Notes under the pieces: generated by a model
What the model was told of the DNA's origin: nothing
The model's input: the letters and a program-made list of their open reading frames with translations, nothing else
Database searches by the model: none
Shown: positions 1 through 1,050 of the stretch, piece after piece
Layout of the letters: each line of letters begins with the position of its first letter
How positions within the stretch are numbered: the first letter of the stretch is position 1
NCBI GenBank assembly: GCA_022822265.1
Contig: JAJECA010000025.1
Coordinates: 62,001-126,000, forward strand
Direction of reading: 5' to 3'
Source of the DNA: Acidimicrobiia bacterium
Lineage (GTDB): Bacteria > Actinomycetota > Acidimicrobiia > Acidimicrobiales > Bin134
Length of the DNA stretch: 64,000 nucleotides
Position numbers and translations under genes: made by a program

Positions 1-83
1 CGTCGATGGGCGAAACCCGCCAAACCAACTACGTGTTCATGCCCCGCTCGGCCGAGCAGTGGATGGCGATGTTCGGCGGGTGA
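1..83 (+). CDS. 3' end of an unrecognised gene
   Basis: Only the last 26 codons are inside the window, read in frame 3 and ending at a TGA at 81-83. The visible tail contains TNYVFMPRSAEQW and ends MAMFGG. I do not recognise the family from this fragment. The stop overlaps the ATG of the next gene (TGATG), so the two are probably translationally coupled and belong to one operon with the two AhpD-like genes that follow. Confidence 0.5.
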   Translation, partial: SMGETRQTNYVFMPRSAEQWMAMFGG

Positions 84-457
84 TGGGAATGAGCTCAACT
101 TCCACCGACAATCCCCTGGCCGCCTTGGACTCCCATGTGGCTGGCCCGCTGGAGGAGTTGGTGCAGGCCCTCGATGGCGTGGGGCTGGATCGCGGATTGT
201 TGGAACTTTGCGCTGCCCGCATCGAGCAGATGATCGGCGGTGGGGCGTCGGCCGCTTCTCCCCAAGACGACCGAGAGAGGGTCGTGCTGGCGTTCACCGA
301 GCAATACGTGCTGGACGCCCACGGGGTGACCGATGAGCTGTGCGCCGAGTTGAATGCCCATCTGTCGCCGCCGGAGCTGTCCGCGCTCACCACGGCCATA
401 GCCACGTTCGAAGCCCTGGCTCGCAGCCGGGCAGTGTTGAAAGGAGTCATGGAATGA
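83..457 (+). CDS. Carboxymuconolactone decarboxylase (AhpD-like) family protein lacking the CxxC motif
   Basis: A 124-residue protein. The segment ERVVLAFTEQYVLDAHGVTDEL followed by LSPPELSALTTAIATFEALARSR is the helical second half of the CMD/AhpD fold, where many family members read ALAFAEQ...HGVTDEL...L...IA.FN. No Cys pair is present at the place where thiol-active members carry CxxC, so peroxidase or disulfide chemistry by this chain alone is unlikely. I chose the ATG at 83, which overlaps the previous stop; an internal ATG at 89 is possible. It is followed by a second CMD protein with a 4-nt ATGA overlap, so the two may form a heteromeric pair. That partnership is inference. Confidence 0.7.
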   Translation: MGMSSTSTDNPLAALDSHVAGPLEELVQALDGVGLDRGLLELCAARIEQMIGGGASAASPQDDRERVVLAFTEQYVLDAHGVTDELCAELNAHLSPPELSALTTAIATFEALARSRAVLKGVME

Positions 458-957
458 CCAGGATCGCCATCCCCGAAGGTGGAATGTCGCTCTTCGACCA
501 CCAGCCCGAGCTGTTCGCGGTGTTCAACCGGTTCTACGGCACGCTGTGGAGCGAAGGGCAGTTGGACCAGGCCACCAAGGAGGTGGGCCGGCTCCGCAAC
601 GCCAGGGTCAACGACTGCAACATTTGAAAGAACCTCCGCTTCGCAGGTGCGAAGCAGCAGGGGCTCACCGAAGATCTGGTGGAGCAGATACAGGATGGCT
701 ACGGCGACAGCGATCTGCCCGATCGATTGAAGCTGGCCTTGCGAATGGCCGATGCGGTGATCTCCGACCCGTCAGGGCTGAGCGAGGCTGATCAGACGGC
801 TCTGCGGGAGGAGTTCACCTCGGCCGAGTTGGCTGAACTGGCATTGACAGTGGCAATGGCTGCCGGATTCTCCAAAGCGGCCATCGCTTGGGGCCCGCCC
901 CCGGTCATCCCCGTTACCGAAGTGCCCACCCCCACCCCCGATGGAACGGTGGGCTGA
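454..957 (+). CDS. AhpD-like (CMD family) selenoprotein with a CxxU redox motif; TGA at 625-627 read as selenocysteine
   Basis: Conceptual product of 167 residues if TGA 625-627 is decoded. Frame 1 runs without break through the TGA: upstream it encodes RLRNARVNDCNI and downstream KNLRFAGAKQQGL, which together give the AhpD-type core with C-N-I-U where relatives have CxxC. The second Cys is the attacking thiol in AhpD, so Sec would replace the nucleophile. The C-terminal half (LALRMADAV...TSAELAELALTVAMAAGFSKAAIAWG) is typical CMD sequence, so the reading frame is conserved beyond the TGA, which argues against a dead gene. A hairpin at 638-655 with a GGU-containing loop lies at bacterial SECIS distance. 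The ATG at 454 overlaps the previous stop and has AGGAG at 442-446. Expected role: thiol/selenol peroxidase or reductase partner. A selA/B/C/D system must exist elsewhere; it is not in this window. Confidence 0.8.
638..655 (+). promoter_or_regulatory. SECIS-like hairpin for UGA 625-627
   Basis: GCTTCGC (638-644) and GCGAAGC (649-655) form a perfect 7-bp stem closed by the tetraloop AGGT (645-648). The loop carries GGU, the feature SelB recognises in bacterial SECIS elements, and begins 17 nt after the UGA, within the usual spacing. The hairpin lies inside the coding sequence, as bacterial SECIS elements do. SelB recognition is inferred from known elements such as E. coli fdhF. Confidence 0.75.
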
Positions 958-966
958 GTTGAACGG

Positions 967-1050
<84 letters not shown>

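Follow-up and report, generated by a model that had tools for sequence, protein, structure and literature searches.

Selenoproteins of the CMD/AhpD type with a CxxU active site have been known from marine metagenomes since the Sargasso Sea study of 2005 (PMC1088965). The AhpD-like 1 and AhpD-like 2 selenoproteins of GOS were described in 2008 (PMC2398784), and AhpD-like CxxU selenoproteins are also listed in a 2026 review, where they correspond to TIGR01926 (PMC13188914). The published model of the bSECIS element includes a stem of 4-16 bp, a loop of 3-9 nt with a G as its first or second nucleotide, a spacing of 16-37 nt and an MFE of -7.5 kcal/mol or lower (PMC13188914). For AhpD, a relay of five residues has been proposed (Glu, Cys, His/Tyr, Cys, His), and the spacing between the Glu and the first Cys is exemplified by Glu36/Cys48 in PA0269 and Glu118/Cys130 in M. 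tuberculosis AhpD (PMC3141380). The eukaryotic Sestrins are composed of one redox-active and one inactive CMD half, an arrangement read as a dimer whose halves arose by duplication and then diverged (PMC4674687).

Here, we analyzed a gene pair at the start of the window, that is, the whole stretch of 64,000 nucleotides under study, from the genome of an Acidimicrobiia bacterium. The second protein of the pair shares with the metagenome AhpD-like/CMD selenoproteins the CMD/AhpD fold, the CxxU motif and a bSECIS directly after the UGA. Since AhpD-like CxxU selenoproteins have been known since 2005, the kind is not new, as the earlier sequence-only reading of this DNA had correctly stated with reference to marine metagenomes. 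Compared with the published descriptions of the metagenome proteins, the subfamily of the window protein adds a conserved CxxC-less partner and an invariant Arg in the place of the relay His. On sequence grounds, we consider it very probable that positions 454-957 encode a selenoprotein acting as the catalytic subunit of a two-subunit thiol/selenol oxidoreductase of the CMD/AhpD fold, and that positions 83-457 encode its active-site-less partner. The conserved pairing with a CxxC-less protein and the use of two alternative SECIS registers within one family both seem to be new; in the open-licence literature, no paper describing either of them was found.

The gene pair and its CxxC-less partner

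The partner gene (83-457, forward strand) starts at ATG 83 and encodes a CMD paralogue of 124 aa without CxxC, which overlaps the preceding gene by TGATG and the Sec gene by ATGA. The Sec gene (454-957, forward strand) yields a protein of 167 aa when its single internal TGA, at 625-627, is read through to the stop TGA at 955-957. The partner protein alone had no Pfam match; a profile built from its relatives and the Sec subunit can be aligned across 118 columns (hhalign probability 98.9%, E 1.4e-17). The sequence-only reading had proposed a "fused operon" with a Cys-less CMD paralogue. The paralogue is real, and it is weightier than was supposed there; the two genes of the window overlap by 4 nt but are not fused. 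A tRNA gene (967-1050, minus strand, 54 bits) lies directly after the Sec gene and is convergent with it.

Relatives of the Sec subunit were collected as 80 named sequences from a scan of GTDB genomes, and they span several phyla. By an iterated search, a CMD partner was found near 78 of the 80, in no case with a CxxC; its distance is 2.7 kb in L112. L152 has no partner within 3 kb, and for one of the two relatives lacking a nearby partner the available upstream sequence amounts to just 48 nt. Many pairs are separate genes with overlaps of 4 nt or 1 nt, and true gene fusions occur in relatives, with the partner first in L116, L119 and L124 and last in L137, L140, L144, L151 and L153. The partner also adjoins members of the Cys type; the pairing thus does not depend on Sec. 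Because of the nearness in 78 of 80 relatives, the frequent overlaps and the fusions in both orders, the Sec protein and its partner probably constitute one two-subunit enzyme, the fusions in both orders being an indirect, strong argument for a complex.

Alternatively, the Sec subunit could be a self-sufficient AhpD-like peroxidase that forms a homo-oligomer, next to which the Cys-less CMD protein has a separate role, e.g. as a regulator. PA0269-type CMD proteins do form homo-hexamers (PMC3141380), and the 2.7 kb between the genes in L112 would suit such independence. Nevertheless, a self-sufficient subunit accounts poorly for genes that are neighbors almost throughout, overlap and fuse in either order, and in the complete congener G020 a single deletion took out the active parts of both genes, so that the partner gene's start now runs into the final portion of the Sec gene. 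We therefore regard separate roles as unlikely and prefer the two-subunit enzyme.

The in-frame UGA codon and the selenocysteine machinery

The TGA at 625-627 is codon 58 of the Sec gene, in the context VNDCNI-U-KNLRF, and stands for the second Cys of the CxxC site, which reads DCNIU; the codon for Cys55 (TGC, 616-618), the proposed resolving partner in CxxU, is invariant in a 45-row alignment. The protein belongs to the CMD family, with a match to PF02627 over residues 18-76 (40.5 bits against a cut-off of 23). The sequence-only reading had placed the TGA at the second Cys of a CMD/AhpD CxxC and had suggested alignment with homologues; among the 80 named relatives, the codon is TGA in 66 and TGC or TGT in 14, which is the in-frame UGA aligned to Cys expected of a bacterial selenoprotein. 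The frame remains open beyond the TGA as described, for 109 codons instead of the 110 counted there.

Within the genus, the frame of the Sec gene was found in 15 of 22 genomes, and every one of these, from separate assemblies, has TGA at the codon; a sequencing error, such as a misread TGC or TGT, is therefore not involved. The nucleotide identity of the gene among congeners is as low as 80%. In the genus sequences, pN/pS amounts to 0.085 upstream of the TGA and to 0.129 downstream of the hairpin described below, and the region beyond the TGA is therefore a selected protein. Synonymous diversity, which is 0.36-0.45 elsewhere, falls to 0.13 over the hairpin codons, about one third, and third-position diversity is the lowest of the gene in the 12-codon windows starting at codons 57 and 58 (permutation p 5e-5). 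The Sec gene is dispensable, since several congeners lack a match to it and G020 has only a fragment.

If the TGA at 625 were a real stop, the gene would be split in two or would be a decayed pseudogene, with re-initiation at GTG 679 as a possibility. Standard ORF calling takes it in this way, ending one ORF at the TGA and giving a 92-aa ORF from GTG 679, the split that automated annotation had been expected to make, and the hairpin alone is near chance expectation. Yet the TGA is retained in every congener that has the frame, both halves are under purifying selection with silent-site conservation centered on the hairpin, relatives carry Cys at the codon, and the genome has the Sec machinery, which together make a real stop highly improbable.

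The genome search for selA, selB, selD and tRNA-Sec that the sequence-only reading had recommended returned all four, the complete set expected of a selenoprotein-producing bacterium, and its possible refutation by their absence fails. In the source genome (3.48 Mb, 94.7% complete), tRNA-Sec is located at C60:5193 (67.5 bits, above the cut-off), and SelA (405 bits) and SelB (274 bits) are adjacent at C60:19874-22737. SelD (356 bits; L018, G000:C11:115856) is itself probably Sec-containing because its gene has an in-frame TGA near the N-terminus. G003 is the only genome with the TGA-containing gene that seemingly lacks SelA; it has tRNA-Sec and the C-terminal end of SelB on a short open frame. 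The small congeners G006 and G016, without the Sec gene, retain tRNA-Sec, SelA and SelB. In the order-wide sample, SelA was detected in 173 of 291 good genomes, and it is present in 20 of 20 good-quality genomes outside the genus that have a TGA-bearing CMD match of at least 50 bits, as judged by comparing two tables by eye. The close named relatives of the source organism are MAGs deposited under the titles Acidimicrobiia, marine group Sva0996 and Candidatus Poriferisocius aerobius. From these names, a marine habitat is probable for this actinobacterium and an association with sponges possible; the taxon names of other relative MAGs are those deposited, and some, e.g. "Bifidobacterium breve", look doubtful. 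A second CxxU CMD protein (ECVVU) with an in-frame TGA is encoded outside the window (L045, G000:C41:117796) and is kept in congeners (L036-L049).

The SECIS hairpin and its two registers

The hairpin GCUUCGC-AGGU-GCGAAGC (638-655, forward strand) is formed by a stem of 7 bp with 0 mismatches (638-644/649-655) and the loop AGGU (645-648), with gaps of 10 nt from the UGA to the stem and 17 nt from the UGA to the loop. The perfect 7-bp hairpin reported after the UGA by the sequence-only reading is thus confirmed. With an MFE of -18.2 kcal/mol, it agrees with the published bSECIS model in every item. However, its shuffle z-score is only -1.6, with 9 of 200 shuffles folding equally well; a hairpin of equal or greater stability arises in 2.2% of synonymous recodings; and some hairpin of the required kind was found at 6 of the 68 long-open TGA sites of the 64-kb window. 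Taken alone, the hairpin is weak evidence, and its strength lies in conservation and covariation. A search of positions 620-690 against Rfam gave no RNA element except a chance-level snoRNA match. Five TGA sites of the window other than 625 have suitable hairpins, among them TGA 6239, rejected because it simply terminates a normal 170-aa ORF, and TGA 28453, where the frame is repetitive and of low-complexity appearance.

Across the families of the relatives, the SECIS takes either of two positions, never both, with the loop at +17 or at +24 nt after the UGA, and each position has its own covariation. The +17 register comprises 37 sequences including that of the window, with AGGU or GGUC as the predominant loops and 94.7% of cells paired, and shows double changes from G-C to A-U and from C-G to U-A; in four of these sequences, the change from G-C to A-U replaces Ala64 by Thr and Ala66 by Val while pairing is kept. 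The +24 register comprises 30 sequences, with loops that are mostly CGUGA, CGUGC or CGUGU, 86.7% of cells paired and 25 double-change cells. In the opposite register, only 27-35% of cells are paired for either set. The Cys relatives show 50% pairing in the +17 register and 35% in the +24 register, without covariation. Homologues with an absent hairpin and a frame broken elsewhere had been named as a possible refutation; instead, relatives with TGA have a hairpin, and those with TGC/TGT lack a conserved one. Four TGA-containing sequences (L101, L104, L107 and L109) have a +17 stem interrupted by a single internal mismatch (AAG to CAG) and thus offer a natural experiment on how much deviation a SECIS tolerates.

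Repeated switches are also seen on an unrooted tree built with the Sec and hairpin columns excluded, where the supported branches cannot be reconciled with fewer than three changes of the Cys label or fewer than three of the +24 label; since the tree is unrooted, the direction of the register and Sec/Cys changes is not fixed. These comparisons strongly support that the UGA at 625-627 is decoded as Sec under the direction of the hairpin at 638-655, in an organism predicted to possess the whole Sec machinery. Decoding as Trp or another residue through a code change or suppression is extremely improbable, as only TGC or TGT replaces TGA among the relatives and both the Sec machinery and a covarying SECIS were found.

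Predicted chemistry and relation to known CMD proteins

The residues invariant in the 45-row alignment include Lys42, Glu43, Arg46, Arg48-Asn49-Ala50-Arg51, Cys55, Sec/Cys58, Arg62 and Phe63. In the proposed mechanism, the selenolate of Sec58 would be the attacking residue and Cys55 would resolve it as a Se-S bond; Glu43 (codon 580-582), 12 residues ahead of Cys55, may act as the general base in a proton relay, and the invariant Arg62 may stand in for the His of classical AhpD. The partner is expected to pack on the Sec subunit and so complete a CMD dimer, in a structural or regulatory role, and the gene overlap would couple the synthesis of both proteins. Candidate substrates are a peroxide, a disulfide or another electrophile. 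The AhpD-type relay is not reproduced: its positions are held by Glu43, Cys55, Ile57, Sec58 and Arg62. Because Arg replaces the relay His throughout the 45 rows and residue 57 of the window protein is Ile, alkyl-hydroperoxidase activity should not be assumed.

Modeled with AF2 (pLDDT 89), the Sec subunit has the CMD fold, matching 3c1l, 2gmy, 2ijc/2o4d and 6k40. The AhpD-like Cys proteins PA0269, Atu0492 and Mlr4105 (2o4d, 2gmy, 3c1l) share this fold and the Glu-Cys spacing before CxxC/CxxU, whereas PA0269 has Cys and His where the window protein has Sec and Arg; these three are reported homo-oligomers, and to our knowledge no partner gene is known for them. No curated NCBIfam model reaches its cut-off for the window protein, and family-wide matches are similarly weak by E-value. 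The protein falls far below the cut-offs of NF041047, of TIGR01926 (peroxidase-related enzyme; 32 bits against 81.8) and of NF053654 (YciW-related (seleno)protein; 31.8 bits against 310), although the last is among its best profile similarities and is also weakly matched by the partner. As ORF calling splits the gene at the UGA and no NCBIfam model applies at cut-off, a selenoprotein of several phyla may be largely mis-annotated.

As in the layout of the window pair, Sestrins have two CMD halves, one of them without the catalytic motif (PMC4674687). For the fused Cys relative L116, whose AF2 model is weak (pLDDT 64), the one credible two-half match was Sestrin2 9lvj (340 columns, TM 0.65 by target, E 0.1). 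By sequence, no Sestrin chain was found at E<=10, and Sestrin2 differs in having a single catalytic Cys and no Sec and in binding GATOR2; the likeness, at the level of the fold, is one of layout and does not amount to membership in the family. We find it rather likely that two-subunit CMD seleno-oxidoreductases are widespread as a bacterial counterpart of the Sestrin layout, with a SECIS that shifts between +17 and +24 around a fixed Sec codon. If so, they would offer a natural series for the origin, shift and loss of SECIS alongside Sec/Cys exchange. With both registers and recurrent Sec/Cys changes in a single alignable family, SECIS gain and movement in bacteria become directly testable, and the conserved Cys-less partner suggests asymmetric pairs among some CMD/AhpD-like proteins, which bears on the origin of the Sestrin layout.

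Beyond the partner, a neighborhood shared by all relatives was sought and not found. In this genus only, the pair is preceded on the same strand by a larB-like gene, larC (nickel insertion, 395 bits) and a metallo-beta-lactamase-fold gene (L050, 7221-10083), the last of which reaches into the window with its 3' end (1-83, forward strand), while the lar genes lie outside it; the arrangement is conserved in the two congeners examined, G020 and G021. Because lar genes are absent beside the pair outside the genus, they were rejected as a general functional context. Mostly gammaproteobacterial pairs (L127, L131, L135, L136, L138, L141, L143, L145, L148, L156 and L160) are located near acyl-CoA-dehydrogenase-like genes, a possible hint of the substrate.
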